The notes beneath the pieces were generated by a model. The model was not told the DNA's origin and searched no databases. It was given only the letters and a program-made list of their open reading frames with translations. Source: Natronoarchaeum philippinense (GTDB lineage: Archaea; Halobacteriota; Halobacteria; Halobacteriales; Natronoarchaeaceae). From it: a stretch of 64,000 nt of DNA. How positions within the stretch are numbered: the stretch's first letter is position 1; the number at the start of each line of letters is the position of its first letter. Position numbers and translations under genes: made by a program. Shown here one piece after another: positions 43,884-64,000 of this stretch. The stretch lies in the NCBI RefSeq assembly GCF_900215575.1, contig NZ_OBEJ01000003.1:186001-250000 (forward strand). The letters are read 5' to 3'.

Positions 43884-43961
43884 ACACGTCCTGATTCGAA
43901 CGCGGTGAAAAGACTTCTTCTTCTGACCTTTTGGGCTATGTGATTTCTATACTGTTGGTCG

Positions 43962-46294: not shown

Positions 46295-46432
46295 TTCTTA
46301 ACAACTGAAAGGGCGTTTCTTCGTAATAATTCTTCTGCTCTGAGGTTTACTCTCTGATATTCCATAACTGGATTCGAGATACCAGCTTTATTTGTTCTTG
46401 TACTACAGACGCTCTTCGGCCGACCATACCAT

Positions 46433-46440
46433 CTTTATTG
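46433..46440 (+). promoter_or_regulatory. TATA-like box of the first GT4 gene
   Basis: CTTTATTG centred about 27 nt before ATG 46463. Confidence 0.45.
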
Positions 46441-46462
46441 ATGGAATCCCGAGACTGGCTTG

Positions 46463-47584
46463 ATGTCGTCGAATCCACGTATTTTTCATCTTATTACGAG
46501 ACTTATCGGCGGAGGCGCAGTTAATGGTCTCATACCAATTGCTACCGAATTGGACGGATACAACGTCACTGTCGGGTACGGGTCTGAGGTTGATCACCAG
46601 TACGTCGAACTTCTTCAGAAAGAAGGCGCCGACACTAAACAGTTCAACCTGATCAGGCATTACAATCCGATTACGGCAGCGCCTGCAGTGCTTTCTGTGG
46701 CCAACTTCATTCGCCAGAACGACTTTGATATCGTTCACACTCACAGTACTGAAGCCGGAATTATCGGACGGGCAGCAGCTAGACTCGCTGGGACATCAAA
46801 TGTGGTCCACACCATCCATGGTGTGCCATTCTCAGAGGACCGAAATAACCTCCTCAACTGGTTTGTCGAACGCTCCGAGGTTGCTGCAGCTCCTTGGACC
46901 GATGCGATAATATCAATAGCCGATATTATCTCTGAGGAGTACCTTTCCCGTGGGATCGGTCGCCCCGAACAGTATCAAACGATTCGGTATGGGATCGATC
47001 TCGACAAGTTTAGCAGCGGTTATCCAGCATCAGATCTTCCAGACTCGGAGGTCCAAGTACTGATGGTCAGCCGGCTAGCTCGTGGGAAAGGGTTTGAGGT
47101 CCTCCTCGATGCCACCGAAGAGCTTGCTGTGGATGGTGTTTCTATTTTGATTGCCGGTGATGGGCCATTGTCTGACGAACTTTCGTCCGAAATTGAGGCG
47201 CGCGGACTTGAGGAAACAGTCCACTTGCTTGGTTACCGCGACGACATACCTGCTGTCATGGCCGCTTGCGATATGCTGGTGCTCCCGTCATTTCGGGAAG
47301 GCACGCCGTTCGTCATTATCGAGGCGATGGCAGCCGGGTTACCGGTTGTGGCGACCGACATCGCTGGAATTCCGGAACAGGTAGATCCCGAAACAAATGG
47401 TATTCTGATCGAACCTGGAAACACAAACGCTCTCTCAGACGCAATTGCCCGCCTTGCTACCTCTCCAGAGTTACGTGAGCGCTTTGGCATGGCCAGTCGG
47501 AAGCGAGCACAACAGTTCTCTATGACTCGGATGCAGGACGATTACGCATCGGTATATGCTGACCTTTTGGATTCGAATCGGTGA
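46463..47584 (+). CDS. Glycosyltransferase family 4
   Basis: 373 residues, GT-B fold. The Gly-rich N-terminal loop is 'LITRLIGGGAVNGLIPIA', with 'DIVHTHSTEAGIIGRAAARL' next. The C-terminal nucleotide-sugar site is 'VSRLARGKGFEVLLDA' and the E-x7-E motif is in 'SFREGTPFVIIEAMAAGLPV'. It adds a sugar to the lipid-linked glycan on the cytoplasmic side. Lower GC than genes to its left. Confidence 0.88.
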   Translation: MSSNPRIFHLITRLIGGGAVNGLIPIATELDGYNVTVGYGSEVDHQYVELLQKEGADTKQFNLIRHYNPITAAPAVLSVANFIRQNDFDIVHTHSTEAGIIGRAAARLAGTSNVVHTIHGVPFSEDRNNLLNWFVERSEVAAAPWTDAIISIADIISEEYLSRGIGRPEQYQTIRYGIDLDKFSSGYPASDLPDSEVQVLMVSRLARGKGFEVLLDATEELAVDGVSILIAGDGPLSDELSSEIEARGLEETVHLLGYRDDIPAVMAACDMLVLPSFREGTPFVIIEAMAAGLPVVATDIAGIPEQVDPETNGILIEPGNTNALSDAIARLATSPELRERFGMASRKRAQQFSMTRMQDDYASVYADLLDSNR

Positions 47585-47587
47585 GCA

Positions 47588-48508
47588 TCATGCACGCTCT
47601 GCGAGGTCCGCCATAGTCTGGACCTGTATTTTCCCTTCGGAACGAAGCTGCGCCGCATATTTGAGAACTTCCTCAAACAACTGCAAGTGCCGTTCAAGTT
47701 CGGTAGCGACGTTGAACGGATGAAACCATAAATGAAAAATTTTCCCAGTTTTGGCAGCTCTATCGAGTCCCTTCTTTGCTCGCTTGACTTGTGTGCGTGC
47801 GGGTGTGTATTGCCACTTATCGTTGACTGGTCGGAATATCTGAGACCCTGGCACCTCTACTAAACCTGATTTTTTCTGAGGTGTCACTACTGGTGGAGTT
47901 CGACAAAAGAACTCATCTCCAAATCGTAACGGACGGCGGAGTGGCCCAGGGATGCGATATTCGTACCAACGGTCGTCCTTACCACGGTAGCTCTGGATCC
48001 CATGCTCTGCTAAAATGTCTATATGGCCAATTTTGTTTCTGGGAAAAATAAACGTCTGTGGCGAAATTCCCGCCTCCTCAGCGACCGCTACAGCCTTTTG
48101 TATCTCTGCTTCTGCTGCCTCACGTGTGCAGCCTGGCTCTCCTAGGATCATGTGTGAGTATCCGTGAAGACCGATTTCGTGGTCCACTTCACGGGATCTC
48201 AACTCGGTTAGGACATCTGGGGCATACCAAAGTTCCTTCTCGATACCTGAGCTGCAAGGAGAAGCATCGAACCAATCATCAACCCGATCTATCTCCGGAG
48301 ATATCATCTCTTCGTGTCCGGAGCAATCTTCCAACAGGTGCATTACGAGTGCCCAAGTTGCCGGAACCTCGTACTGATCAAAAAGGTCACAGAGACTGGT
48401 AATGGCGCTTCGAGTGTTTCTATAGGCCTGTTTGTAACGATCGACATCTCCTGTGTCGAAGCAGCCCCAACTGAACTCGGTATCCAGCGAGACGACGAAT
48501 GTTCCCAT
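47588..48508 (-). CDS. Polysaccharide deacetylase-family protein
   Basis: About 306 residues of the carbohydrate esterase 4 (NodB) fold. Metal-site candidates: the Asp in 'FVVSLDTEFSWG' and the His pair in 'HEIGLHGYSH'; 'FIFPRNKIGHIDIL' is the RxxxN-like substrate strand. It would remove acetyl groups from an N-acetylated sugar of the glycan. The start at ATG 48508 is favoured by a TATA-like ATATCAAATAG at leaderless distance; ATG 48556 is possible. Convergent with the GT4 gene, 3 bp apart. Confidence 0.75.
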   Translation of the reverse strand: MGTFVVSLDTEFSWGCFDTGDVDRYKQAYRNTRSAITSLCDLFDQYEVPATWALVMHLLEDCSGHEEMISPEIDRVDDWFDASPCSSGIEKELWYAPDVLTELRSREVDHEIGLHGYSHMILGEPGCTREAAEAEIQKAVAVAEEAGISPQTFIFPRNKIGHIDILAEHGIQSYRGKDDRWYEYRIPGPLRRPLRFGDEFFCRTPPVVTPQKKSGLVEVPGSQIFRPVNDKWQYTPARTQVKRAKKGLDRAAKTGKIFHLWFHPFNVATELERHLQLFEEVLKYAAQLRSEGKIQVQTMADLAERA

Positions 48509-48665
48509 TGTCGACTGGTCCCGACTATTTGATATCGGCTCTATTTCTTGTTCCATATCACTCTTCTCTTGCTATTTTATTGTCTGCTCTCACGACGCGT
48601 CTGACAACCGCCACTCGTCAAGCGAATCGGTATAGTTACGTAGGTATATCTGAAATGACCCCGCA

Positions 48666-50219
48666 ATGACTACGGTTGTTGTTGGATTGGATGGAGCTTC
48701 ATTTGAACTCATCGATCGATGGATCGATGAGGGAGAGCTTCCTGCAATCGAACAGCTCGTCGAAGACGGCGTTTCATCTGATCTCCAGAGTTGCGTTCCC
48801 CCGGTCACGTGTCCCAATTGGCAAGCTTACGCTACGGGAACGAATCCCGGAAAGTTGGGCGTTTTCTGGTGGGAGTACATTGATCGCGAGGAACATGACA
48901 TCTATAGTACCAGCTCCGCTGAGAACTTCAACGGCACTCACTACTGGAACTACCTTGATGGACGCTCTGCTGTCGTGAACCTCCCAACGAGTTATCCACC
49001 GTCTGATATCGATGGGATTCACATCGCTGGTGGTCCCGGCGCCGAGCAAAGCGGGTACACGTCTCCTGCTGAACTCGAGACGGAACTACAGGAGGAGTAC
49101 GACTACAAAGTACATCCTGAGAAACTTGGAGAACTGTCGGTAGATAGCCCGGATAGTGACTGCATCGATGAAATCTACGAGTTAATCGATAATCGATTTG
49201 ATATCGTGGAAGACTTGCTTACTGACGGCGAGTACGAACTCATCCACGTCACCGTCTTTTATCTGAACGTTCTGCATCACTTCTTCTGGGACGACGAGAT
49301 CGTCAAAGCGGCTTGGACTAAAATTGACCAGCGACTCGAACGTCTACTTGAGACTGACGAGATGGATCGGTTGTTTGTAATGTCTGATCACGGTTCTAAC
49401 GAGATTCAGGTTAGCTTCCGTATCAATGCGTGGCTAGAAGAGCAAGGATACCTCGAAACAACCGGTGGAATTGCTGATCTTCTCTATCGATTTGGCCTGA
49501 CACGCGAGCGTGTTCGTCCGATTCTCGCTAACGCCGGGATTGAGTGGTTCATGCGAACCCTCCTTCCCTCCCGGATACAGAACGCCCTCCCTGATGAATC
49601 TGGAGCAGTAACCCAAGGTGCGAAAGCTTCTGTCATTGACTGGGATGCTTCGAAGGCAGTTGCCAGTGGCCAAGGTCCGGTATACGTCCTTTCTGAAGAC
49701 GAAACGGAACGAGAGAAAATCACAGACGAATTGATAAGCAAGCTAGATGGTCTTGAGCACGAGGGCACTGAAATAGTCTCTGCCGTCCCCTCTAGCGAGG
49801 TTTACGATGGCCCAGCTCGTGCCGACGGTCCGGACATTCTCCTTCGGCAGGCTCCTGGCGTTCACATTGAAGGAAAAATCGGCGACGTAGCTCCGTTTGG
49901 AACACCTGATCGATGGCGGGGAGAAAACAAAGAAACTGGACTATTCATTGCGTCTGGACCAGATATCAAAGCCGGTGAACAACTAGGTAGCATGGATATT
50001 ACAGAGATTGCTCCAACTCTTTTACATCTACACGGCCAATCTATCCCCCAGAATCTTGATGACGATCCTCGAGTTGACATCTTTCAGGAAGGAACTGCCC
50101 CGGCTGAGACGGACGTTACGACAGCTCGTGCAGGGAAGATAGACAGTGATCAGGGAGCAACCGCCCACGAGGAGAGTGAAGTCAGTGACCGTCTTGCGGA
50201 CCTCGGCTACCTAGAATGA
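48666..50219 (+). CDS. Type I phosphodiesterase/nucleotide pyrophosphatase-like protein
   Basis: 517 residues, alkaline-phosphatase superfamily. Metal ligands 'VVVGLDGASFELID' and 'LFVMSDHGSNEIQ', with the nucleophile probably the Thr in 'VTCPNWQAYATG', as in NPP enzymes. No signal peptide. It ends with RLADLGYLE, a tail shared with three other proteins of this locus. It may hydrolyse or transfer a phosphodiester on the glycan or its carrier. First gene of a run 48.7-52.9 kb on the plus strand. Confidence 0.8.
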   Translation: MTTVVVGLDGASFELIDRWIDEGELPAIEQLVEDGVSSDLQSCVPPVTCPNWQAYATGTNPGKLGVFWWEYIDREEHDIYSTSSAENFNGTHYWNYLDGRSAVVNLPTSYPPSDIDGIHIAGGPGAEQSGYTSPAELETELQEEYDYKVHPEKLGELSVDSPDSDCIDEIYELIDNRFDIVEDLLTDGEYELIHVTVFYLNVLHHFFWDDEIVKAAWTKIDQRLERLLETDEMDRLFVMSDHGSNEIQVSFRINAWLEEQGYLETTGGIADLLYRFGLTRERVRPILANAGIEWFMRTLLPSRIQNALPDESGAVTQGAKASVIDWDASKAVASGQGPVYVLSEDETEREKITDELISKLDGLEHEGTEIVSAVPSSEVYDGPARADGPDILLRQAPGVHIEGKIGDVAPFGTPDRWRGENKETGLFIASGPDIKAGEQLGSMDITEIAPTLLHLHGQSIPQNLDDDPRVDIFQEGTAPAETDVTTARAGKIDSDQGATAHEESEVSDRLADLGYLE

Positions 50220-50273
50220 CTGCCGGTATCCGTCTGCATCGTTCTGTAAACTGCTTGGTGAACAGCATAAACG

Positions 50274-51422
50274 ATGAGTGAATCCACTGTCGTCTTTTTC
50301 CACATTGCTTCAGGATCTTATGGAGGGGGTTCCCACATGCTGTATCGGCTCCTTTCGTCCATCGATCAGGGGTCGATCAATCCTGTTGTGCTCGCTCAAC
50401 GAGACGACACACTCACCCGAAAGCTAAGGAAAGAGGGTATCCGCGTCGAAATTGTTCCCTTCCGCGGCAGCCTTGACTCGTACAATGAAGCACTTTTGAC
50501 CGGGTCGATCAGCCTGAAAACTCGTTCTGCTTTTCGACTGCTTCAGTTCAACGCTGAAGCTCGATCCGTGCTACGGGACGCAGACGTGATCTGGTGTAAG
50601 AATCTCCGGGCGCTATTGTCGATTATCCCGTATTCGATACTGTCTGATGCACGGCTCCTCTGGAACATCGGGCTTGGAAACCCTTCAACTGGTTTCAGAC
50701 GATATCTCAATACAACTGCAATTCGTGCAACCGACGAAATTCTGATTGAATCCCCCGTTCAGGCAGAACGGATCTTCACGGAGTCTCAGCTTCGGCGTGC
50801 CAGAGATAAATTGACTATTATAAGTAAAGGTATAGACACTGACCGATTTTCTCCATCCCCGAACCCTAAGCAGAATGAATTTCGGGTGGGTATGGCCTCC
50901 TTGATTACTCCGCGCAAACGAGTCGAGGATTTCATATCGGCGGCCACACGCATCAACGAAAGCGATCCAGATATTCGCTTCTCAATTGCCGGCTCACCGC
51001 CCGACGTGGACGACACCGAGTATCTCGATCGTCTTGAACGACTCGTCGCATCGAATGGTATAGAGGACGTGGTTACGTTTGAGGGGTGGGTTGACGATAT
51101 GCCGAGCTTCTACAATTCGATCGATGTGTTTGTTCTCCCATCTCAAAATGAGGGCATACCTGGCTCAGTCAAGGAAGCTATGGCCACTGAGACTCCCGTT
51201 ATCGCCACGAACGTCGGAGGAGTACCGGAGATCGTCGATCACCAAACGACTGGGTATCTCGTCAAGCCGAAATCGCCGTCACAGATTGCAGACTATCTTC
51301 TAGAACTCCGTGAGAACCCCGATCTAATGGACGAAATTGGACAGAATAGTCGCCAACGAATCGTAAATGAATACTCTATGGAAGCATATCTGCAACAGTA
51401 CGAGACAATTCTTCAACGATAA
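50274..51422 (+). CDS. Glycosyltransferase family 4
   Basis: 382 residues, GT-B fold. N-terminal 'HIASGSYGGGSHMLYRLLSS', C-terminal 'GMASLITPRKRVEDFISAA' and the E-x7-E motif region 'SQNEGIPGSVKEAMATETPV'. Second GT4 of the locus, adding another residue to the lipid-linked chain. It is 2 nt from the following sulfatase-like gene, so that pair is co-translated. Confidence 0.87.
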   Translation: MSESTVVFFHIASGSYGGGSHMLYRLLSSIDQGSINPVVLAQRDDTLTRKLRKEGIRVEIVPFRGSLDSYNEALLTGSISLKTRSAFRLLQFNAEARSVLRDADVIWCKNLRALLSIIPYSILSDARLLWNIGLGNPSTGFRRYLNTTAIRATDEILIESPVQAERIFTESQLRRARDKLTIISKGIDTDRFSPSPNPKQNEFRVGMASLITPRKRVEDFISAATRINESDPDIRFSIAGSPPDVDDTEYLDRLERLVASNGIEDVVTFEGWVDDMPSFYNSIDVFVLPSQNEGIPGSVKEAMATETPVIATNVGGVPEIVDHQTTGYLVKPKSPSQIADYLLELRENPDLMDEIGQNSRQRIVNEYSMEAYLQQYETILQR

Positions 51423-51424
51423 GC

Positions 51425-52885
51425 ATGGCTACGACACCCAATATTCTATTTATTGTGATGGATACGGCCCGGGCAAAAACGGTCTATAATGATCCAGAGG
51501 TGATGCCTAACTTCTACCGGATTGCCGAAGATGGTACGCTGTTTACGAACGCCTTCAGCACCGCTCCGTGGACACTACCATCTCACGCCTCGATGTTCTC
51601 TGGTCGGTATACTTCTGACCATGGAACACATGCAGGATCGACATCATTTGACCCAGACTACCCCCCATTAGCTCAACTCCTCAACAGGTCCGGATATCGC
51701 ACTGCTGCATTCTCCAGTAACACATGGGTTGCTCCAGAATTCGGATTTCAACGGGGGTTCGAACACTTCAGCACGTGGTTAAAGATCGTCAACGGCGGCG
51801 TGGATCTCGAAGCGATCGCGAAGGAGAAAAACGGTCTCGTTGAACAAGGGGTGGCAGTCGGCAAGAGTTTGTTCAGGCGCGATGCCCACCGAACGATTCT
51901 CAACGCCCTTTACGCGAAGTTTTTCAAGGAGCGCTATGACTCAGGTGCAAGACTAAAGAATTGGAAGATTCGACGCTGGCTATCTTCTTACGGCAGCGAC
52001 GACCGACCATTCTTTATTTTCGCCAATTATCTGGAGCCGCACTTAGAGTACGATCCGCCTGAGAAATTCCGGCCGAGGTTCTTACCCGAACATCTTGATC
52101 AGTCAGATTTCGACGGCCTCAACCAGAACGCTTGGGAGTATATCTGTGATCAAGTGCAAATGGATAATTCCGATTTTGAACTGCTGGAAGCGTTGTACAA
52201 GGCAGAACTCAATTATCTCGATTATCGGCTCGGAAATCTGTACGACTACCTTGATACGAGTGGATTACTTGAGGAGACCATGATCGTGATTGCTGGAGAT
52301 CATGGCGAAAACATTGGTGATCATGGGCTGATGGATCATCAGTATTGTCTCTACGATTCGTTACTTCATGTTCCGCTGCTCGTTCGGTATCCGGACAAAT
52401 TCCCGGCAGGTAAGCGATTTGATGGTCTCGTTGAGGTCCGGGATCTGTTTCCGACACTACTGGAAGTCGCGGACGCATCAACTGACGATGAAGCCGCTTC
52501 AAGCCGAAGTTTACAGCAAGCGCTTGAGCGTGGGGGACGTGAATACGTGCATGGAGAGTACGCCACTCCCCAACCATCCATAGAAGCACTGGAACAACGT
52601 GTCGGGCAAGTTCCTGCGGACGTGAAAGAGTACGATCGATCGTTGCGATCAGTTAGGTCGGATGAGTGGAAACTTATCGAAGGATTGGATGGAACAATAG
52701 AATTGTATAATATCGATTCAGATCCTAGCGAACAAAATGATGTCTCAAACGATTATTTAGATACCGTTGATGAACTCTCACAGCTATTGCGCAATCGTTT
52801 CTCAGAATTCTCAGATATACCACGTGAATCAGTTCAAATGAACTCATCGACAAAAGATAGACTCGAAGATCTTGGTTATTTGTAA
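51425..52885 (+). CDS. Sulfatase-like protein with Thr nucleophile
   Basis: 486 residues of the alkaline-phosphatase superfamily, sulfatase branch. Metal ligands: D13 in 'FIVMDTARA' and 'IAGDHGENIGDHG'. The formylglycine motif CxPxR is replaced by T50-L-P-S-H54 ('PWTLPSHASMF'), so it cannot be a classical sulfatase. A Thr nucleophile is used by LtaS/phosphoethanolamine-transferase relatives, so a phospho-group transferase or phosphatase is more plausible. No signal peptide. Ends in RLEDLGYL. Downstream partner of the GT4 gene. Strikingly AT-rich near its 3' end. Confidence 0.82.
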   Translation: MATTPNILFIVMDTARAKTVYNDPEVMPNFYRIAEDGTLFTNAFSTAPWTLPSHASMFSGRYTSDHGTHAGSTSFDPDYPPLAQLLNRSGYRTAAFSSNTWVAPEFGFQRGFEHFSTWLKIVNGGVDLEAIAKEKNGLVEQGVAVGKSLFRRDAHRTILNALYAKFFKERYDSGARLKNWKIRRWLSSYGSDDRPFFIFANYLEPHLEYDPPEKFRPRFLPEHLDQSDFDGLNQNAWEYICDQVQMDNSDFELLEALYKAELNYLDYRLGNLYDYLDTSGLLEETMIVIAGDHGENIGDHGLMDHQYCLYDSLLHVPLLVRYPDKFPAGKRFDGLVEVRDLFPTLLEVADASTDDEAASSRSLQQALERGGREYVHGEYATPQPSIEALEQRVGQVPADVKEYDRSLRSVRSDEWKLIEGLDGTIELYNIDSDPSEQNDVSNDYLDTVDELSQLLRNRFSEFSDIPRESVQMNSSTKDRLEDLGYL

Positions 52886-52911
52886 CTAACTAGTAAATAT
52901 AAAAGAACCGT

Positions 52912-53706
52912 CTATTTGTATTTACTCACATCCAGACCTAATATTTTAAATAAGAGAAATATTACGCTGATACAAAGAGCAGCAACGGTTTTTGGACGCA
53001 CCCTAATTCGAGTGGCTATTATCAGATATGATATTGCTTCACGGAAGTTGCCTTCTGTATGTTTTAGACGCCCGTGGCGGTGATATAGTTGGTGAACGAA
53101 CTCACTGAAATGCAGTTTATATTCTGAAATACGCTGCCAGCCAAGCCAGAGAAAATGTAAATCTGCTTCAAATCGTAGTGAGGAGTCCGTAGTAGCTGAT
53201 ACTCCGCTCTCTTGCTTTCGAACCGTTACTATGTCCTCACAGAAACAGACACCAGCATCTTGCGCTGCTTCGAGCATGAAGAGGTGATCCTCTCGTCGCT
53301 GAAGTGATTCTTCAAATTGTACGTCCGTTTGATGGGTATCAAGTAGGATGGAGGGGGTTAGCGACCCGATCTGGCCAACAAATAGCTTCTGAATGAAATC
53401 TCCTGTCGTCATCTGCTGCCCTTCGACACACAGTCCGGCCCCGGTTTCGTGCATTCGCTTTAGCTGCCGTTCGAGTTTGTCGGGTTCCCATAGATCGTCC
53501 GCGTCGAGAAAGGCAACGTATCTCGTGTCGGCCCGCTCAAGGCCGACGTTGCGAGCCCATGCCGGCCCACGCTGGTCTGTGTCTTCCACGACTATCAATT
53601 CTGTCTGAACGGATTGCTGTTTAACCGATTCTTTCGCCTCTAATAACATGTTCTTTGGGGTATGAGTAGAACTATATGGAATAATAACAGAGACGGTAGT
53701 ATTCAT
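52912..53706 (-). CDS. Glycosyltransferase family 2
   Basis: 264 residues, GT-A fold. 'VSVIIPYSSTHTP' start, 'QTELIVVEDTDQRGPAWARN', DxD-type motif in 'YVAFLDADDLWEPDKL', and acceptor-side 'RREDHLFMLEAA'. A hydrophobic C-terminal segment may hold it at the membrane. Start at ATG 53706. Adds a sugar to the growing chain. Confidence 0.85.
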   Translation of the reverse strand: MNTTVSVIIPYSSTHTPKNMLLEAKESVKQQSVQTELIVVEDTDQRGPAWARNVGLERADTRYVAFLDADDLWEPDKLERQLKRMHETGAGLCVEGQQMTTGDFIQKLFVGQIGSLTPSILLDTHQTDVQFEESLQRREDHLFMLEAAQDAGVCFCEDIVTVRKQESGVSATTDSSLRFEADLHFLWLGWQRISEYKLHFSEFVHQLYHRHGRLKHTEGNFREAISYLIIATRIRVRPKTVAALCISVIFLLFKILGLDVSKYK

Positions 53707-53821
53707 GCTCAGGTCTGGGGGCAGCGATAAAATAAACCTGTTCCTCAAGTAACGGCCACACAACGGCTTGATGACATTGGCTTCCTGACTGTCACTCAGA
53801 CTGTAGACGGGATCAGCGTGA

Positions 53822-55123
53822 TCAAGCGTATCCGAGATCTTTCAGCCTACTTTTTACTGTTTCGTCAGGCTCTACCGCGGTATTATCAACTTCATCTAAG
53901 TACTTTCGCTTTTCATGTAGTGTTTCTTCAAAGGAGCTGATGGATTCTCCAACGAATTGTACTCCTGCGTCATGATCTTGGTAGCCGTACCGCCCGTCAG
54001 GAGTGACCATGCCGTACAGCGGACTGTCCCGCTTGTCGAACGTTTCGAGTGCGGCCCCCTCCCGTTTGAATTGCTCCCGGTGAGAGTTCATGAACCCATG
54101 ATACTCGACGAGACGATGACGGGGCTGAAAATCGTCATCAAGTAGATTCTGGCCGCGCCCGCCAACGTCAATTCCGGTGAGTGATCCAATCGTTGCGTGG
54201 ACATCCAGAATACTCACCGGCTCTGATCTGGTAGTATCGGGAATCTCAGAGCCGCTAATAACCAGCGGAATTTGGGTTAGCTCCGGATATAAACCGTATC
54301 CGTGGTTCCAGAGACCATGTTCGCCAAGCATTTCGCCGTGATCTCCGAGAGTAATGACGTAATCAAAATCCTTGTTGAGCTGTTCGTATATCCGTTCATA
54401 AACCGACGATAGATAGATAACTGACTGCTCGTACGCCGAACAGACCTTGGCTGGCTCTGTCACATTCTCGGCGAAAGCTTGGCCGATGGAAACTCGGATG
54501 GGATTTGCTTCATTTGATGGCGGGTAATAGGGCGTGTGCGTTTCCATGATATTCACCGCAAGAAACTCTCCGTTGTTCTGGAAGTTCGTCTTCTGTAGTC
54601 GATCCAGAATAGCTTCTCCCCCTCCATCGGCGTTTGATTTTTTGAAACGGCGGTAGCCGTGTTTTAAACTTCTGAACGTCGGTGAATCAGCGGTTACACA
54701 GTACCACAGTCCATGGAGATACCGGCTTAGACCGCTTGCGTTGATTCTCTGGTCGAACGCATCCCAGTCAACTGAATTTTCAAACTGTGGGTCTAGGTCC
54801 CGCGGCTTAACAAAATGATCGAAACCTCGCTCCCACCCTGGCCATGCAGTGATATTTCCGTTTCCAGTAAAAAACCGAGTTTTATAGCCCTCTTGACGGA
54901 GGTGTTCCGCAAGAACAGTCGTGTCGCACTCTAAGCTCGGCGACTTCGCGTGAGTACCAGCCTCAGACGGATACAGGCCTGTGAATAAAGATGCGTGGGC
55001 AGGTATTGTCCAGTGCGAAGTGGAGTATGCTGTTGTAAATCGTGTACCGTCTAGCCAGCCGAAATAGTCCTCGAAGTAATCATACCTGAGCGTATCCAAG
55101 ACCACTACTGCTACATTCGTCAT
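53822..55123 (-). CDS. Sulfatase-like protein with Thr nucleophile
   Basis: 433 residues. Metal ligands D10 ('AVVVLDTLRYD') and 'ITLGDHGEMLGEHG'. The CxPxR position reads T39-I-P-A-H43 ('HWTIPAHASLF'), so there is no formylglycine precursor. Ends in RLKDLGYA like its relatives. Cytoplasmic by lack of signal. As for 51425, a phosphotransfer or phosphatase role on the glycan is more likely than sulfate hydrolysis. Confidence 0.82.
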   Translation of the reverse strand: MTNVAVVVLDTLRYDYFEDYFGWLDGTRFTTAYSTSHWTIPAHASLFTGLYPSEAGTHAKSPSLECDTTVLAEHLRQEGYKTRFFTGNGNITAWPGWERGFDHFVKPRDLDPQFENSVDWDAFDQRINASGLSRYLHGLWYCVTADSPTFRSLKHGYRRFKKSNADGGGEAILDRLQKTNFQNNGEFLAVNIMETHTPYYPPSNEANPIRVSIGQAFAENVTEPAKVCSAYEQSVIYLSSVYERIYEQLNKDFDYVITLGDHGEMLGEHGLWNHGYGLYPELTQIPLVISGSEIPDTTRSEPVSILDVHATIGSLTGIDVGGRGQNLLDDDFQPRHRLVEYHGFMNSHREQFKREGAALETFDKRDSPLYGMVTPDGRYGYQDHDAGVQFVGESISSFEETLHEKRKYLDEVDNTAVEPDETVKSRLKDLGYA

Positions 55124-55180
55124 TGGATATTCACGACCTCGGCACAGCCCTTGAAGCTATCGTTGCTCTGTCTCGATTGC

Positions 55181-56122
55181 TTATTTGTACCCAAGGTTAT
55201 CGAGCCGTTGCTCAACTATTTCGGAGTCAAGATCTTCACTGTTCACCGGTGGGTCAGCGGTGATCGACCGTCGCTCCGATGATTCGATGACGTGCCACGG
55301 AACTTCACGCAATTCCTCGGCGTGTAACCCGCGAGGATGGCCGTATCCCCGAGCTGGGATTGGTCCAGTTCGCTCTCCGAGAAGATTCCCGTGATCAGAC
55401 GTAATCACGGTTTTACCAGGAATTGACTCCATAACACGCTCTGCGTGAGGGAGCACCACTTCGAGATTTTCACGGTACGCTTTCCAGACTAATTCTTTGT
55501 CCGCCCGATTGTACTTCAAATTCATCCACACTTGTGCGTCAGTGCTTTCTCGTCCTTCGCGGTGGAGATCGATCCCTTTGTGCTCCAGGTCGTCTCCGGT
55601 ATCTCCGATGAACGGGAAGTGTGGCTGCATGAAGTGGACGATCAACCGCTTGTCTGGATACTCTTGGTATATTTCAATCGCGGCGTCGGCGACGTCCTCT
55701 GGGCGCACTGTTTGGTGCTCCGCGTCCCAGTATTCATCGAGGAGATTTTCGACTGCGTGGAACGTGTCCGAGTCAAGCTTGGGCGCGTGAGGGTTCGCTG
55801 TCACGTACACCGTATCGTGGTGTTGCTCTCCTTGGAAGTTATTCTGGAGGAACTCCCAGCTTTCACTCCCCGAGGAACGGCACTTTTCTAGTTCCCCCTC
55901 GATATTGCAGTGTTCGGCATACATGTCGTAGCGACAACCATCCAAAATAATGAGATTGTCCCAATCGCGTCCCGGGATATCAGTTCCACTCGGGTAGTTA
56001 AGCTTATCTTGAAGGTTGATATTCAATTTGGTGCCGAGAGCATTTGCTTCAGACAGCACAAGTGACGGCCGTTTCAAAGCTGTGAGAAGGTTTTCGAGGG
56101 AGTATCGATCCGGGATCTTCAT
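55181..56122 (-). CDS. Sulfatase-like short protein
   Basis: 313 residues, a compact alkaline-phosphatase-superfamily member. 'NLIILDGCRYDMYAEHC' gives the first metal Asp; a Ser-rich 'CRSSGSESWEFLQNNF' occupies the nucleophile position (no CxPxR); 'KTVITSDHGNLLGER' supplies later metal ligands. Ends in RLDNLGYK. This haloarchaeal subtype is often found in glycosylation loci. Substrate unknown. Confidence 0.78.
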   Translation of the reverse strand: MKIPDRYSLENLLTALKRPSLVLSEANALGTKLNINLQDKLNYPSGTDIPGRDWDNLIILDGCRYDMYAEHCNIEGELEKCRSSGSESWEFLQNNFQGEQHHDTVYVTANPHAPKLDSDTFHAVENLLDEYWDAEHQTVRPEDVADAAIEIYQEYPDKRLIVHFMQPHFPFIGDTGDDLEHKGIDLHREGRESTDAQVWMNLKYNRADKELVWKAYRENLEVVLPHAERVMESIPGKTVITSDHGNLLGERTGPIPARGYGHPRGLHAEELREVPWHVIESSERRSITADPPVNSEDLDSEIVEQRLDNLGYK

Positions 56123-56169
56123 TAGTCAGTACTATTTTTGTCCACACCTGAATCCTGTGCTTCTCGTAT

Positions 56170-57654
56170 TTAGTTGATTATCTCTTCTCTGACAAACGAT
56201 TCGTCCTCTTCTTCTATTCCAAACACATATAGTAAGAGTAAGAACGTTACTCCACCAACAGTTCCACCGAACAGTAGTTGTGAGTACCCGGTAAACAACG
56301 GCTTGACCATCACCATCAGGAGCGTTGCTATGATGCAAGCGGCGATCGGCTTAGCAAATTGCCAAGAGTACGGCACGATCTTCTCAAGATACCATACTTG
56401 TATGACTCGAACGACATTAAGAAGTGACAGGCTCGTCATCGTCCCGATAGCAGCCCCGATCAGTCCGAACTGAGTGAGCAAAACATAATTGAGTGCTACG
56501 TTGAGCAGACCGAACGCCCACTGATTAATCATCGTGAGGTACTGATGGTCGGCCATCATTAGCACGTAATTGCTAGGGCCTGCTGTCGCATTCACGAGAT
56601 GACCTAACACGAGCAGCGAAAACAAGGCTGTCGCAGCGGTGACCTCGTCTCCGAACAGCGAAAGCACTGTAGTCCGGTGAACGACGAGAAGGGCTGCACC
56701 AAAGGCCGCAATCGTAAACGCCCAGCGAGTCACAATCTGATACACCGATTCGAGCCGGTCGATTTTTCCATTCGTATATAATTCAGATGCGATAGGTGGG
56801 AACAGCTGATTGATCCCGCTAAGCGGGATCACGATTGCAGTTGCAAGTAGCGCCGCGATATTGTAGATCCCAACATCAGCTGATGTCAAAAAGATACCAA
56901 CCATGAAAACGTCGATCCGTTTGTATAGAAACGTCCCAGCCCGCGAAAACATCAACGGGAACGAGAAGTTGTATAGACTGAACGCAGTTTCTCGTTCTAT
57001 TCCCGTCCGTGCTCTGATGTCCGTCTTAGCGAGAAACACTGTGACTGCAACTGCGAAGACGAGAGCACTCGCCACTGCCAGCGCGACGACAGTTTCAACA
57101 AGCGTATATCCGAGGAGCAGTCCTACCACCGCTGCGAGTAAACGAGCAATGCGAGGGAACACCTTCGACAAGAGTGCGTCGTACTCAACAATCGTCATAC
57201 TCCGAAACACTGCGCCTAGCAGCGTCGTGAGTGTGTAAAATGGGACTGTGATGGCAAGGATTTGGAGGACATCAGGCAACAGATTATTCTGTAGTGTAAG
57301 TTGGTTGATGATTGGTGCGAAGAGATATAGGCAGACCGCAATCAGAACGCTAAACACAAACACAGTCCCGAGAGCGACGCTTACGATCTGATCTCGTCGC
57401 TCGTCGTCAGCGTTTGCGGGAACGTACTTGAGCACTCCCTTGTCCATTCCTGCAGCGGTGATCGTCATTGTCGTAGCTGTAATCAGTCGCGCATATGCGT
57501 AGATTCCATACAGTGCCGTGCCAAGCGCCTGGATGAGAACCCAATTAAGCAGGAAGCCTGCGGCGTTCGTAATCACCTTTGCAAGTACGAATATAGATCC
57601 ACCTCTGAGAATTTCTCGTAGCGAGGTGTTCACTGACGAAGAATCGCTCGACAT
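56170..57654 (-). CDS. Polysaccharide flippase (Wzx/MOP superfamily)
   Basis: 494 residues with 12-14 membrane helices. 'GGSIFVLAKVITNAAGFLLN' at the N-terminus and 'RIDVFMVGIFLTSADVGIYN' in the middle are typical of Wzx/oligosaccharide flippases. It would move the lipid-linked glycan across the cytoplasmic membrane. 35 bp from the Wzy-like gene, suggesting shared transcription. Confidence 0.87.
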   Translation of the reverse strand: MSSDSSSVNTSLREILRGGSIFVLAKVITNAAGFLLNWVLIQALGTALYGIYAYARLITATTMTITAAGMDKGVLKYVPANADDERRDQIVSVALGTVFVFSVLIAVCLYLFAPIINQLTLQNNLLPDVLQILAITVPFYTLTTLLGAVFRSMTIVEYDALLSKVFPRIARLLAAVVGLLLGYTLVETVVALAVASALVFAVAVTVFLAKTDIRARTGIERETAFSLYNFSFPLMFSRAGTFLYKRIDVFMVGIFLTSADVGIYNIAALLATAIVIPLSGINQLFPPIASELYTNGKIDRLESVYQIVTRWAFTIAAFGAALLVVHRTTVLSLFGDEVTAATALFSLLVLGHLVNATAGPSNYVLMMADHQYLTMINQWAFGLLNVALNYVLLTQFGLIGAAIGTMTSLSLLNVVRVIQVWYLEKIVPYSWQFAKPIAACIIATLLMVMVKPLFTGYSQLLFGGTVGGVTFLLLLYVFGIEEEDESFVREEIIN

Positions 57655-57689
57655 GGCGATTTCGTGCCGAGCAATCCACCTAACGCTTG

Positions 57690-59564
57690 CTATTCAGTGT
57701 CGGCTCGTCCACCTCGTGAGACAACACTCGTGTCGTGATACTTCGCGCCGACAATTATGCCGTTCAAGAGCCAGAGCACGCTGTAAGCGACTGCACTATG
57801 ATAAATCGATGTCCAGAATGCGTACGCGTGGAATGCAAGCAACCCAAACGCGAACGACCACCAGAGAAACGCATCGCTCGCCTCGGACTCTTGTGATAAC
57901 TGGATCGCAATTATGATCGGGAGAGTGACTGAGATAACGAATGCGAGAGCACCAAGAATGCCGACCTCGGCAAGGTGTGCTAAGTAGGTGTTGTGGATTA
58001 CTCTTGGCTTATCAAACCCATATGATTCTGAAACCATCACGAAATTCCAGCCACCGATCCCAAAGAGCGGGTACTGAGCCCCGAGATCAACCGCTGCGGC
58101 GTACTGTTGGAGGCGTATCAGAAGAGTGTTCGACTGGAATCCAGGAATGCCTTGGAAGAGTTCCAGAATTTCTTTCTGAAGTCCTGTTGGTGAGGAATCA
58201 GCTCCTATCTGATTTCCTCCACCTTCCGATGAGCCGTTGGTTGGCCCAGTTGAGGATGAGCCGTTGGTTGGCCCAGTTGAGGATGAGCCGTTGGTTGGCC
58301 CAGTTGAGGATGAGCCGTTGGTTGGCCCAGTTGAGGATGAGCCGTTGGTTGGCCCAGTTGAGGATGAGCCGTTGGTTGGCCCAGTTGAGGATGAGCCGTT
58401 GGTTGGCCCAGTTGAGGATGAGCCGTTGGTTGGCGAACCGTCCGACTGATTCGTCGTCCCAGCACCCACTCCCGCGGAACCGCTCTGCCGACCGGTTGGG
58501 CTTTTTTCTCTACCCAACATAAACAACAGGAGTGTCAAAGCGATCCCTGAAACTGTTCCGTACACTGATGTCTTAAACCGCCTATTGCCTCTGACAAATA
58601 ACGAATATCCACTGAATATGATGATCAAGCCAAATACGAGAATCATTGCACCGAGCCCAGCATCAGTATCACTGATCTGCACCATTACTATAGTGAATGG
58701 AGGAAAAGCCAGTGCGGCGAATTTTAGCAGCCGAGTACGTTCTTCAGCTATTGTGACGGCAACTGCGAGTGGCGTTACGATAAGTAATAGCGAAATTAGA
58801 ATTCGCGACGATCCGCTGAATCCCCCGGCAAAGAGTCCAGACGTAAATTCGACAAACCAGAGGTCAAATTCTCCAAGAGGGCTGCCTGTAGCATCACCGA
58901 GTCGCGTAAATCCGTATGCCTTCCCGCGATGCGATTCCGCGATCGCTACGACGGTGTGCCCGGCGGTAGCCACGAGGAGCGGGTATATCGCGTCAAGTAC
59001 TGAAACCCATCGGATGAGTAGAGCCGCGAAGATGAAGTAGAATAAATATCTTGTAACTGACAATGAGAAGGCGATGGCGTTCACAGATGATGGGCCGTTA
59101 GAAATTGCGGCTGATATATATGACCAAAAAACAAAAAATGACAGTGCTCCAGCCGTGTACTTGCTATACGCCCCGAAACTGAGGTCATGTCGTTCCACAT
59201 AGAGCAGTCCAACAATACAGGGGAAGATCACAAGATCTGCCAGCAGGATTCCGAACTCCGCGCCTCCCGGTCCAGAAAGTACCGGCACATCAGCGCTGTA
59301 CGTTGTTAAAACGACGGCCGCGCTAACGATACCTTCTCCAATACTCCCGTTGATAATAATGAAAGCGAAGTATGCGCACATCACGATCCCAACCGAGACG
59401 AGAAGTGGGATCGGCGAGAACACTGCAACTGCTGGCGCAAGAATATTAAGCAGTACGACCAGTGCCACAGAAGAAACAATGATGTCCTTTGTCGATACTG
59501 TGATTTGACTTGGTAATAGGTCTTGGCCTATTATTGATCTTGACCCGGAAAGTGCAGATTTCAT
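57690..59564 (-). CDS. O-antigen polymerase/ligase-like protein with NGS-repeat loop
   Basis: 624 residues, about 12 membrane helices, Wzy/WaaL-like ('QYAAAVDLGAQYPLFGIGGW', then 'RVIHNTYLAHLAEVGILGAL', the conserved C-terminal loop motifs). A loop between helices carries eight copies of TNGSS, encoded by a 27-bp minisatellite (58228-58434); each unit holds an N-G-S glycosylation sequon. It would polymerise or ligate glycan units outside the membrane. A TATA box sits at 59585-59594. Confidence 0.82.
   Translation of the reverse strand: MKSALSGSRSIIGQDLLPSQITVSTKDIIVSSVALVVLLNILAPAVAVFSPIPLLVSVGIVMCAYFAFIIINGSIGEGIVSAAVVLTTYSADVPVLSGPGGAEFGILLADLVIFPCIVGLLYVERHDLSFGAYSKYTAGALSFFVFWSYISAAISNGPSSVNAIAFSLSVTRYLFYFIFAALLIRWVSVLDAIYPLLVATAGHTVVAIAESHRGKAYGFTRLGDATGSPLGEFDLWFVEFTSGLFAGGFSGSSRILISLLLIVTPLAVAVTIAEERTRLLKFAALAFPPFTIVMVQISDTDAGLGAMILVFGLIIIFSGYSLFVRGNRRFKTSVYGTVSGIALTLLLFMLGREKSPTGRQSGSAGVGAGTTNQSDGSPTNGSSSTGPTNGSSSTGPTNGSSSTGPTNGSSSTGPTNGSSSTGPTNGSSSTGPTNGSSSTGPTNGSSEGGGNQIGADSSPTGLQKEILELFQGIPGFQSNTLLIRLQQYAAAVDLGAQYPLFGIGGWNFVMVSESYGFDKPRVIHNTYLAHLAEVGILGALAFVISVTLPIIIAIQLSQESEASDAFLWWSFAFGLLAFHAYAFWTSIYHSAVAYSVLWLLNGIIVGAKYHDTSVVSRGGRADTE
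58228..58434. repeat. 27-bp minisatellite, about 7.7 copies
   Basis: Unit begins GATGAGCCGTTGGTTGGCCC. Copies appear identical. Encodes (on the minus strand) TNGSSSTGP repeats in the Wzy-like protein. Likely length-variable by slippage in steps of nine residues. Confidence 0.9.
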
Positions 59565-59584
59565 ATCTCTTGTTTATTAATTGG

Positions 59585-59594
59585 TTTATAATAA
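59585..59594 (-). promoter_or_regulatory. TATA box of the Wzy-like gene
   Basis: TTATTATAAA on the minus strand, centred about 26 nt before ATG 59564. Confidence 0.5.
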
Positions 59595-59624
59595 GCTACT
59601 GGACATAGACTGACAACTGCAAAC

Positions 59625-61829
59625 TCATTCTTGCTGTCTCACTGCGTATACCGCCACTTCTCGATTTTCGCTAATGAATATTTGTTGATGGTTCGTGTCT
59701 GTTGACTCTCCGCCGTTGGTACTCTGCCCACCAATTGCCGATGATTCCACTTCACCAGTGACTACGATATATCCTATCTTCCTTTCGGACTGTTCGTACC
59801 ACTGATCCAGACTTTTGCTCGCCCAGAAGTCGTCGTAGTTTCGCTCGGCGTACCCATACGTCTCAGCCTCCCCATTGACCACGTAATTGAACATCCTGTT
59901 CTCATCCCACTCGCTCAGCACGTAGTTTTCAGGATACGTCCGGTTTGTACTCTCCGCATGCTCGTCCATCGCCACCGCAGCCTGATACTCGGCATCGCTG
60001 TAGGTCACTTGGCTGACCAGCGAGGGAACTAACACCATTCCCAGCCCGGCGAACAACACGAAGATACCGACCAGATAAGATAACTGTGCCTGGTCGTCTG
60101 GCACCCCAACCGAGATCGAGCGCCGTCCGTCAGCTGTCCCCGATCCAAGTAACGATCCTGTATCCGGGCCTTCCTCTTGAAACGGAAGCGGCGTCCGAGC
60201 CAAATCGACCGCCGACAGCACGTACACCAGCCCGAGGCCCCCCAGCACCGAGACGAACAGCGCTAACTGCCCGGTAAACCGCATCTGAATTCCTGCGAGC
60301 GCGGTGAAGTACCAGGTACACACCGCCATCAACAGCCACCCGGGTTCGTAGCGCCGATACGCGACCCACGTCGCCCAGCCCAACGGCACCAGCGCGAGGT
60401 AGAATGCAAGCCCGGTCTGGGTCAGTGGCCCGAAGACGAACCCGTATTCGGCAGCGAACAGCGAGTTCGCCTCGGTCATCCCGTCACGGAAGAACAGATC
60501 GTCGACACGAGTTTGCAACTGCGCTACGTCCTCGGGGCGCAGTCGTCGGAACAACCACAGCCCCGCGCCGGCCACGCCCGCTTCGAGCACGACGAGCGCG
60601 CTGAGCGGCCAGTCGAAGCGACGCCAGACCTCGCCCAGCACGAGCACCGCGATCGTCCCGCCGAACACCAGAAGCGGCGTGTACGCGGCGAACGATTCCT
60701 GCCAACCCCAGCGCGCGTGCAGTAGGTACGAAATCACGCTTCCCAGTCCGACGCCGACAACGAGCGGAATGTTCGCCACTGCCGGCGACACGTCCGCACG
60801 GGCGTCCATCAGCGCGCGGAGACCGATATACCCCGCGAGCGGGATGAACACGAGCGGTGACCCGCCCCACGCGTGCGCCGAGAAGCCGACGCCGATCCCG
60901 AGCGCTACAGCAGTGACCCACGTCCAGCCTGCGCTCAGGTGTGCCCGAATTGCGGCGTCGTTCGACGCGTTCACGTCGCGTCGTTCTTGGAGATCGACCG
61001 CCAACCACGCCAGCGACAGCACCGTCACGCCGAGCCAGAAATACTGGTGGATCTGATGATCTATGAAGCCAATCCCCGTATAGACGGCGTGGGCCGGAAT
61101 CGTCGCCAGCACGGCGACCGAGGCGATGCCCACACGTGGATCGTCGGTCAGCACGGTCGCGAGCTTGTACAGCACGACGCCGAGCGCGAGCGTGGCGACG
61201 ACGGGCAACCACGCCGCGACGGTCGTCGCCGCCTGCTGTCCACCGCCTAGCAACTCGGCGACGAACCAGTTCGTCGCGTGCGAGAGCGGTCGGGTCCCCT
61301 CCATCCCTTCGGGAAGGGTCGCAATCACGCCCCAGTCGGTCGGCCCCGACGATCGGGTGAGCAACTCCTCCATCCAGTAGCGAAAGAAGTAGGGGTCGTT
61401 CCCCGGCGAAATGACGTGCTCGTCGCGCATCACCGACCCGTACGCGGTGATTCGCATCACGAGCAAAAAGACGAGCGCGCCGGCGAGGCCGGCCATCGCC
61501 CGGGGGTCGACGGAAACGTCCAGATTGAACTCGAAGCTCTCCCAGAACGAATCACCCTGTTCGACCGTCTCGGCGTCCCCGGACACCGCGGCGACGACGG
61601 CGTCCCGATCGGCAAGCCGGTACTCGCCGTCGGCCTTCTCGACGATTCCCTGAGAGACGAGCTCACCGAACGTTCCCGAGTCTGCAGGAATGTCCTCGAA
61701 CGTCCACGTTTCGCGCTCGGCGTCGACATCGAGAATCGCTTCGAGCGTCGCTTCGGCGTCGGGTCGATCATCGAGGAACGAGTGGACGGCCTCACGGTCC
61801 GTCTGGGACTGGCCGGCCTCCGGTGGCAT
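59625..61829 (-). CDS. AglB/STT3-like oligosaccharyltransferase, degenerate WWDYG
   Basis: 734 residues. Residues 1-105 look like a winged-helix-type soluble domain ('TWTFEDIPADSGTFGELVSQ'). About 12 membrane helices follow, with STT3 loop motifs 'NDPYFFRYWME' and 'IGFIDHQIHQYFW' (DHQ where DHH is common). The C-terminal soluble domain should carry WWDYG for sequon binding but reads S-E640-W-D-E-N644. Overall fold fits AglB (transfer of lipid-linked glycan to Asn), but the acceptor may differ. The last ~160 codons are AT-richer than the rest (25 G+C in 59641-59700 against 44 in 61201-61260). TATA-like CTATAAC is 25 nt upstream. Confidence 0.78.
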   Translation of the reverse strand: MPPEAGQSQTDREAVHSFLDDRPDAEATLEAILDVDAERETWTFEDIPADSGTFGELVSQGIVEKADGEYRLADRDAVVAAVSGDAETVEQGDSFWESFEFNLDVSVDPRAMAGLAGALVFLLVMRITAYGSVMRDEHVISPGNDPYFFRYWMEELLTRSSGPTDWGVIATLPEGMEGTRPLSHATNWFVAELLGGGQQAATTVAAWLPVVATLALGVVLYKLATVLTDDPRVGIASVAVLATIPAHAVYTGIGFIDHQIHQYFWLGVTVLSLAWLAVDLQERRDVNASNDAAIRAHLSAGWTWVTAVALGIGVGFSAHAWGGSPLVFIPLAGYIGLRALMDARADVSPAVANIPLVVGVGLGSVISYLLHARWGWQESFAAYTPLLVFGGTIAVLVLGEVWRRFDWPLSALVVLEAGVAGAGLWLFRRLRPEDVAQLQTRVDDLFFRDGMTEANSLFAAEYGFVFGPLTQTGLAFYLALVPLGWATWVAYRRYEPGWLLMAVCTWYFTALAGIQMRFTGQLALFVSVLGGLGLVYVLSAVDLARTPLPFQEEGPDTGSLLGSGTADGRRSISVGVPDDQAQLSYLVGIFVLFAGLGMVLVPSLVSQVTYSDAEYQAAVAMDEHAESTNRTYPENYVLSEWDENRMFNYVVNGEAETYGYAERNYDDFWASKSLDQWYEQSERKIGYIVVTGEVESSAIGGQSTNGGESTDTNHQQIFISENREVAVYAVRQQE

Positions 61830-62100: not shown

Positions 62101-62367
62101 ATGCCCGGCGCAGAGAAACGTACAGTCGGCGAACGCGGTCAAGTGACCCTTCCGAAAGAGTTCCGCGAGGAATTTGGTCTCCACGGCGGCGACGAAGTCA
62201 CGATCCGAAAGGAATCAGGACAGATCGTCATCGAGAAACCGGTTTCACGTGAGGACCTCGCAGAGGGATACCGTCGTCGTGCCGAACAGCACCAAGCGCT
62301 GGCCGACGAGATGGCTGATGTCTCTCAGGAAGCTAACGACACCCTCGGCGACGTGCCGGAGTGGTAG
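62101..62367 (+). CDS. AbrB/MazE-type antitoxin
   Basis: 88 residues with a SpoVT/AbrB swapped-hairpin domain: 'RTVGERGQVTLPKEFREEFG' and 'GDEVTIRKESGQIVIEKPV'. An acidic, helical tail would neutralise the toxin. The stop lies just before or overlaps the start of the MazF-like gene. Expected to autorepress the operon. Confidence 0.85.
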   Translation: MPGAEKRTVGERGQVTLPKEFREEFGLHGGDEVTIRKESGQIVIEKPVSREDLAEGYRRRAEQHQALADEMADVSQEANDTLGDVPEW

Positions 62368-62375
62368 TGGTTTCG

Positions 62376-62750: not shown

Positions 62751-64000
62751 CTACCAGGTCAGCCCTTCATACGTAATCCCCTCACCGCGCTCCACGACAC
62801 GCCGCCCATCCACCACGACGGACTCTTCCATCGCGTCGAACGCTTCGTCGAGCGCCGCGAACTCGTCCCAGTCGGTCACCACGAGCGCTCCCGAGGCCCA
62901 CTCCAGCGCCTCACCAGCGGAGTCCGCGTACTCGATCTCCGGGAACTGCTCGCGCATGTTCTCGGTTGCGACCGGATCGTACCCTACCACGTCGGCTCCG
63001 CGCTCTTTGAGCCCCTCGATCACCGGAATCGCCCGCGAGTTGCGCGTGTCGTCCGTCCCGGGCTTGAACGCTAGGCCGAGCACGGCGACACGCTTACCTT
63101 CCACGTCGACGTGCTCGTCGAGCAACTCCAGCAGTCGTTCTGGCTGGCGGTCGTTGACCTCGACGGCGGCGTCTAACACTGCGGGATCGTAGCCGGCCTC
63201 CCGCGCCGCGGCGATGATCGCTGCGACGTCTTTGGGAAAACACGACCCGCCCCAGCCGACGCCCGAACGCAAGAACTGCTCGCCGATGCGGTCGTCGAGA
63301 CCGATCGCGTCGGCGACCTCGTAGGCGTCGATGCCGAACTCCTTGCAGACGTTCCCCAAGTCGTTGATCAGCGAGATTTTCGTCGCCAAGAAGGCGTTGT
63401 TGGCGTACTTGATCATCGTCGCCGTCTCGGGGCCCGTCTGGACGACGTGAGTGTCGTGGTCGGCAAGTAGCGGTGCGTACACGGCCTCCAGCCGATCGGT
63501 CGCCCACGCCGAGTCAGTCCCGAAGACGACCTTCTGGGGTGCCAGAAAGTCCTCAACTGCAGTCCCCTCGCGCAGGAACTCGGGGTTCGTCGCCACCTCG
63601 ACGCGCGATGACGACTCGCCCAGTCCCTCGGCGACGGCGTCCCGAATCTCGTCGACCTTCGGCGGCGTGATCGTGCTCTTGACGATCACCAGATGATCGC
63701 TGTCGGCGTCCGCGAGCGCCTCGCCAGTCATCTCGGCGGCCGCTTCCAGCGGCGCCACGTCGATGCTGCCGTCCTCGCGCGATGGCGTCTGGATGGCGAG
63801 GAACGTCGCCTCGGCGTCAGCGACATTCTCGTAGGCTGTCGTCGCCTGCAAGTTCTCGCCGGCGTGCTCGGCGACCAGCTCGTCCAGTCCGGGCTCGTGG
63901 ATCGGCGCTCGCCCCGCGTTCAGTTCGGCGACGACGTCTTCGTCGATGTCGATCGCCGTTACGTCGTGACCCAGATCGGCGAGACAGGCCGCGAGCGTCG
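62751..64000 (-). CDS. aglM: UDP-glucose 6-dehydrogenase (cut by window edge)
   Basis: Partial: the C-terminal ~415 residues; the frame runs off the right edge without a start. NAD-domain remnants '[20 protein letters not shown]', catalytic region '[13 protein letters not shown]' (active Cys), and C-terminal '[18 protein letters not shown]' are those of UDP-glucose 6-dehydrogenase (AglM in Haloferax protein N-glycosylation). It makes UDP-glucuronate, the substrate for the epimerase encoded at 39055. Gene symbol by analogy. Confidence 0.85.

Follow-up and report, generated by a model that had tools for sequence, protein, structure and literature searches.

A haloarchaeal STT3-like family with an alternative acceptor motif: candidate for a second, sequon-relaxed oligosaccharyltransferase

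What does a further STT3/AglB-like protein transfer, and to what, in an archaeon that already has an ordinary AglB? The question is raised by P0001, a gene on the minus strand (59625..61829, an open reading frame of 734 residues) of the window, the 64,000-nucleotide stretch of Natronoarchaeum philippinense DNA that we analysed. The same genome carries exactly one ordinary AglB, at another locus and with its SWWDYGHW intact, which scores 684.9 bits against TIGR04154 (archaeo_STT3), or 794.3 bits with the neighbouring segment added. P0001 reaches 93.9 bits, far under the curated cutoff of 450, and its sequence has no match to PF02516. The original prediction described it as an STT3-type transferase with a degenerate WWDYG and an N-terminal winged-helix-like domain, perhaps acting on an altered acceptor or transferring a polymeric glycan.

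Searched alone against the PDB with phmmer, P0001 yields no match; a profile of its family was required, and this finds AglB of A. fulgidus (3WAJ/5GMY) at E 7.6e-21. By the family profile, D47, D161-H162, the glutamate of the TIXE motif and R426 of A. fulgidus AglB align with D145, D257-H258, E453 and R517 of P0001. The best structural match of the AlphaFold (AF2) model of P0001 (pLDDT 81) is again A. fulgidus AglB, with Z 33 over 565 residues; STT3 (Z 30), PglB (Z 23), ArnT (Z 23) and PMT (Z 18) are matched as well. According to the model, P0001 has a GT-C fold of the STT3/AglB type, and the family to which the original prediction assigned it stands on the TIGR04154 score, the profile match and the model together.

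With archaeal AglB (TIGR04154; A. fulgidus AglB-L, 3WAJ/5GMY/7E9S) the protein shares the GT-C fold, both metal motifs, the loop-5 glutamate and the transmembrane arginine, and its relatives share the C-terminal peripheral domain AglB_L1 (PF18079), found in 19/25 of them and not in P0001. Unlike AglB, the family lacks WWDYG, has an extra N-terminal domain, is linked to genes of the PGT/BacA/Wzx/Wzy type (PGT, polyprenyl-phosphate sugar-1-phosphate transferase), and shares its genome with a normal AglB. Campylobacter PglB and eukaryotic STT3 resemble it in fold and catalytic layout, PglB also in using pyrophosphate-linked donors; they differ from the family, which is devoid of the WWDYG acceptor motif and, on the S-layer evidence given below, of the N-x-S/T restriction.

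The catalytic residues lie on a single uninterrupted frame, with no frameshift or internal stop. The first metal motif, GND (residues 143-145; 61395..61403, minus strand, as are all motifs of this gene), has its ND invariant in 111/111 family members. The second, DHQ (residues 257-259; 61053..61061), reads D/E-H-H/R/Q across the family: D or E at 257 in 110/111, H258 in 111/111, and H, R or Q at the third position. E453 (60471..60473), the loop-5 residue aligned to the glutamate of TIAE, the form that the TIXE motif takes in A. fulgidus AglB, is kept in 110/111, and R517 (60279..60281) in 111/111. Altogether N144, D145, H258, R517, V637, R645 and N648 are invariant in the 111 members. EWDEN occupies the WWDYG position (residues 640-644; 59898..59912); both it and DHQ are located where the original prediction placed them.

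No WWDYG-like motif occurs anywhere in the alignment of the family (0/111); one at another site would have refuted the original prediction. At its site the members share a consensus of their own, S-x-W-G-x-N-R-M-Y-N-Y, in long form S-x-W-G-x-N-R-M-Y-N-Y-F-V-N-G-E-S: the second tryptophan of WWDYG is kept in 108/111, and the first tryptophan, the aspartate and the glycine are replaced family-wide. Since all 111 members are without WWDYG and yet share this consensus and keep the catalytic residues, the motif is altered rather than decayed. "Degenerate" was thus a misleading word for it, and degeneration of EWDEN in one genome is ruled out, the change being common to the family. Nor does DHQ signal altered function, as had been argued: among the 111 members it is an ordinary variant, found in 25, next to DHH in 49 and EHR in 32. 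WWDYG is present in 31/31 AglBs from related genomes; these were collected by that very motif, so the count holds by construction, and no AglB locus that we fetched was without it.

The STT3-like family is widespread, uncharacterised and found throughout one haloarchaeal order. P0001 has matches, mostly full length, in 50/98 related genomes. When 292 genomes sampled from the class were searched with the family profile, about half gave full-length scores; the 44 family matches among 393 genomes sampled from the phylum belong without exception to one order, that of the window genome. An alignment-based scan found 146 relatives, of which 80 were kept; a single-sequence pattern scan of genome contigs gave no matches. 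In a FastTree tree a long branch separates the family from AglB (the tree has no outgroup, and support for the node adjacent to the root carries no information). Some relatives bear the NCBI name "STT3 domain-containing protein": the fold has been recognised, the role has not. Three members (L024, L029 and L030) are about 1000 residues long owing to a long C-terminal extension, and Haladaptatus relatives that resemble them are annotated by NCBI as LamG-like jellyroll proteins. Two genomes hold, beside an intact copy, a second one with internal stops (G076:C1:1092096-1092995 and G133:C1:2937876-2940290).

The N-terminal cytoplasmic domain (residues 10-85; 61575..61802, minus strand) is a general feature of the family. 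It is arranged as helix-helix-strand-strand-helix, and Foldseek returns no match for it at E <= 0.001; the top structural hits, none with an E lower than 0.2, comprise winged-helix regulators and other proteins. The domain proposed originally is present, and its winged-helix assignment is weakly supported by such hits. In sequence it is related to the N-terminus of a haloarchaeal EMC3/TMCO1-type insertase, which matches the domain in a profile comparison with probability 95 and E 2.3e-8, the rest of that protein being PF01956 (E 1.8e-43). The insertase of the window genome itself (L003 868-1806) carries the domain as well. Sharing it with an insertase suggests that the STT3-like enzyme may be located at the translocon or ribosome.

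Around P0001 the window contains linked genes for a PGT, a flippase and a polymerase, the components of a PGT-initiated, Wzx/Wzy-dependent pathway. Directly downstream and on the same strand lie a Wzy/O-antigen-ligase-like polymerase of 624 residues (57690..59564, minus strand; PF04932, Wzy_C, E 1.3e-8) and a Wzx-type flippase (56170..57654, minus strand; PF01943, E 8e-23), the two neighbours already recognised in the original prediction. Farther away are the PGT (41506..42918, plus strand; PF02397), two nucleotide-sugar epimerases around a UDP-glucose/GDP-mannose dehydrogenase (42963..46294, minus strand), two GT1-type glycosyltransferases (46460..47584 and 50274..51422, both plus strand) and a GT2 glycosyltransferase (52912..53763, minus strand). 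On the other side, the UDP-glucose 6-dehydrogenase gene aglM (62751..63998, minus strand) runs off the window, and a MazE/MazF-type toxin-antitoxin pair (62101-62729) lies between it and P0001. Within the Wzy-like gene, a perfect 27-bp tandem repeat of 7.7 identical copies (58228-58434) encodes (GSSSTGPTN)n, probably in an extracytoplasmic loop. Three genes of the alkaline-phosphatase superfamily lie within 48666-55123, namely a phosphodiesterase (48666-50219), a further member (51425-52885) and a sulfatase (53822-55123). Their products end in a common C-terminal motif, RL.DLGY, and an unassigned protein (55181-56122) has a similar tail, RLDNLGY; the three perhaps serve phospho- or sulfo-modification of the glycan. 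The window also encodes a DUF4330 protein (40151-41284); genes with this domain (our cluster 7) occur near the family gene in 14/81 loci and are candidate components of the pathway.

In a nucleotide comparison with the sister genome G001, similarity ends at 59833, inside the 3' end of P0001, and resumes at 46303. The intervening 13.5 kb (46303..59833), for which the compared region of G001 has no counterpart in nucleotide sequence, is thus a glycan cassette that differs in the sister. It is flanked by the PGT, dehydrogenase and epimerase genes on one side and by P0001 and aglM on the other, and looks like a cassette exchanged between conserved flanks. P0001 is the sole member of the 111 shorter than 755 residues and, having lost the C-terminal domain of its relatives, a feature that the original prediction did not mention, may be impaired.

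Linkage to the same kinds of gene recurs across genomes. The commonest neighbour of the family gene is a PF02397 PGT, in 44/81 loci, in 18 of which it is the next gene downstream; after it in frequency come epimerases, nucleotidyltransferases, GT1 enzymes, GlmS, UDP-glucose dehydrogenase, PAP2, Wzx and BacA. Among 79 genomes that are at least 90% complete, a PGT is present in 42/44 with the family and in 16/35 without it (Fisher p 8e-7, uncorrected for phylogeny). Of the 45 genomes that hold a PGT, the family gene and AglB, 29 have the PGT no more than 25 kb from the family gene, and none has it that close to AglB; for BacA within 5 kb, the counts are 10/39 for the family gene and 0/39 for AglB. 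The product of a PGT is a pyrophosphate-linked sugar, and BacA serves to recycle the pyrophosphate carrier; the glycans that haloarchaeal AglB uses are monophosphate-linked. The position of the family gene beside PGT, BacA, Wzx and Wzy points to glycans that are pyrophosphate-linked and polymerised, and the donor of the STT3-like enzyme would be a DolPP-linked polymer.

As to the acceptor, the S-layer glycoprotein is the probable one. For the best S-layer hit in each genome we recorded which polar residue comes first after the signal-peptide core, the cleavage sites being deduced from sequence. This residue is asparagine in 63/96 genomes with the family versus 11/63 without it. The first set gave 29/41 versus 5/27; the second, out of sample and scored by a rule fixed in writing beforehand, gave 34/55 versus 6/36 (p 3e-5, with an odds ratio of 8.1). 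When family presence is permuted inside each of the 10 genera where it is mixed, p=0.002, a within-genus signal that comes mostly from one genus, the Halorubrum-like g7 (9/13 versus 2/12). A stricter definition of the asparagine (58/96 versus 4/63) was chosen post hoc and is not our main figure. The correlation has exceptions on both sides: about a third of the genomes with the family are without the rule-defined asparagine, and the 11 above have it without the family. Only 17/63 of these asparagines stand in N-x-S/T, and 46/63 are non-sequon. As a small and weak control, other secreted proteins in random 20-kb regions have the asparagine in 1/12 cases. These regions were used because the count for secreted proteins in family neighbourhoods (13/31), which we discarded, consists mostly of the N-terminal membrane segment of PGTs, together with two or three proteins of S-layer type that the clustering had missed.

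The S-layer gene is also a physical neighbour. At most 6.5 kb separate it from the family gene in 5/41 genomes and in a further 11 from the second set, these genomes coming from at least 5 genera; AglB is that close to it in 0/41. In several Halorubrum loci the two genes adjoin, and the predicted mature N-termini of S-layer proteins encoded next to the family gene have an asparagine at about position 2, usually with no serine or threonine at +2. In the window genome the mature S-layer protein (L203) is predicted to begin ANHDGNS, its gene being on a different contig from P0001. One genome, G066, is H. salinarum-like: its bacteriorhodopsin is identical to that of H. salinarum over residues 9-267, it has four rhodopsins, and its plasmid replication region is 96% identical to pHS1. 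There the gene order is S-layer protein, COG1361-like protein, ABC ATPase, ABC permease, STT3-like protein, GlmS, two GlmU-like proteins and PGT, with 3.3 kb between the family gene and the S-layer gene, and the mature S-layer protein is predicted to begin A-N-A-D.

No glycoprotein had been demonstrated outside eukaryotes before the S-layer protein of H. salinarum. The glycan at its Asn-2, one of its two N-glycans, is attached through GalNAc and tolerates replacement of Ser-4; its repeating units are built on DolPP in a bacitracin-sensitive manner (PMC2952790, PMC4335974). According to a 2010 review, this had not been explained, and the genomes had only one transferase gene (PMC2952790); whether AglB processes the Asn-2 glycan was still left open in 2019 (PMC6591318). 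In the literature that we searched, no second transferase is reported; work on Hfx. volcanii and one Halorubrum study discuss AglB-independent glycans only. A tie between the Asn-2 pathway and the family is suggested by the H. salinarum-like genome. That genome has the candidate gene by the S-layer, GlmS/GlmU and PGT genes, and the acceptor tolerance agrees, so that the STT3-like family may include the long-missing enzyme for the Asn-2 sugar polymer. The low-salt glycosylation of Hfx. volcanii Asn-498 is similarly AglB-independent and needs a transferase other than AglB (PMC3871713), and the family was considered for this role too. That transferase probably belongs to some other family: neither of the partners PF02397 and BacA is present in the control genome of Hfx. 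volcanii, and there is no Haloferax among 80 named family loci.

We now propose, on a modest balance of probability, that the family is a second, sequon-relaxed oligosaccharyltransferase for DolPP-linked polymers, with an S-layer asparagine at about position 2 as its main acceptor. The PF02397 PGT would load a sugar-1-phosphate onto dolichyl phosphate, giving a pyrophosphate-linked sugar, on which cassette glycosyltransferases would assemble the repeat unit; the Wzx-type flippase would export it and the Wzy-like enzyme polymerise it. The STT3-like enzyme would then transfer the glycan to protein, the proposed direction of transfer, and BacA or PAP2 would recycle the lipid pyrophosphate. As the serine/threonine pocket formed by WWDYG is replaced by S-x-W-G-x-N-R-M-Y-N-Y, N-x-S/T would not be needed, and the enzyme would probably act chiefly on the asparagine at about position 2 of the mature S-layer glycoprotein. 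The domain in common with EMC3-type insertases may hold the enzyme near the translocon or ribosome. A broader scheme, for which the balance tips slightly the other way, has two parallel N-glycosylation systems in many haloarchaea: AglB with DolP-linked glycans at N-x-S/T, and the STT3-like enzyme with DolPP-linked polymers at a sequon-free S-layer asparagine by the cleavage site, this second enzyme perhaps docked at the translocon through its insertase-type domain and acting once the N-terminus is freed. The altered acceptor and polymeric glycan of the original prediction are partly supported. For them speak the replaced motif with catalytic residues kept, the linkage to PGT, BacA, Wzx and Wzy, and the covariation with a non-sequon asparagine; on the other side, acceptor and donor are deduced from genome data, the family has an alternative motif rather than a degenerate one, and DHQ adds nothing to the argument.

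Other readings have to be weighed against this one. An STT3-fold ligase for capsule or exopolysaccharide, which would take Wzy-type polymers off lipid pyrophosphate and pass them to a lipid or to another acceptor that is not a protein, would fit neighbours like those of bacterial Wzx/Wzy loci, a variable cassette typical of capsule loci and the loss of the sequon pocket. It leaves unexplained the recurrent adjacency to S-layer genes and the asparagine covariation; the AglB-type AglB_L1 domain retained by most relatives also speaks against it, and we consider it unlikely. An ordinary N-x-S/T enzyme, set apart by its donor alone and recognising serine or threonine through other side chains than AglB does, would account for the second tryptophan and the catalytic core being kept, and for those asparagines that are sequons; the non-sequon majority, in spite of the asparagine enrichment, and the family-wide loss of three WWDYG residues make it distinctly improbable. 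The GT-C fold is common to ArnT and PMT too, so a monosaccharide transferase (ArnT/PMT/AglS-like) adding DolP-linked sugars to lipid-linked or protein-linked glycans comes into question. AglB and STT3 match well above these enzymes, and the family keeps both metal motifs, the loop-5 glutamate, R517 and the C-terminal domain of AglB, which renders this reading very improbable.

A last possibility concerns the window copy, which could be a non-functional gene in decay, truncated by cassette exchange, in a family that is itself functional. Its lost C-terminal domain and the break of G001 similarity inside it speak for this; its 734-residue open frame and intact catalytic motifs speak against, and we hold decay to be quite unlikely. 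The second, DolPP-dependent oligosaccharyltransferase that we favour has evidence against it as well: PGTs in genomes without the family, the two-sided exceptions to the asparagine correlation, a within-genus signal drawn mostly from one genus, the S-layer gene of the window genome lying on another contig, and a window copy without AglB_L1 that may be impaired.

Altogether, this work supplies a candidate gene for polymer transfer of the H. salinarum Asn-2 type, and replacement of WWDYG would account for a transfer that no longer depends on the sequon. The acceptor site can be tested in dozens of species. If the proposal is true, the family would be an N-glycosyltransferase that is free of the N-x-S/T requirement and joins protein glycosylation with polymers of the Wzy type, which would matter both for enzyme engineering and for archaeal surface biology.
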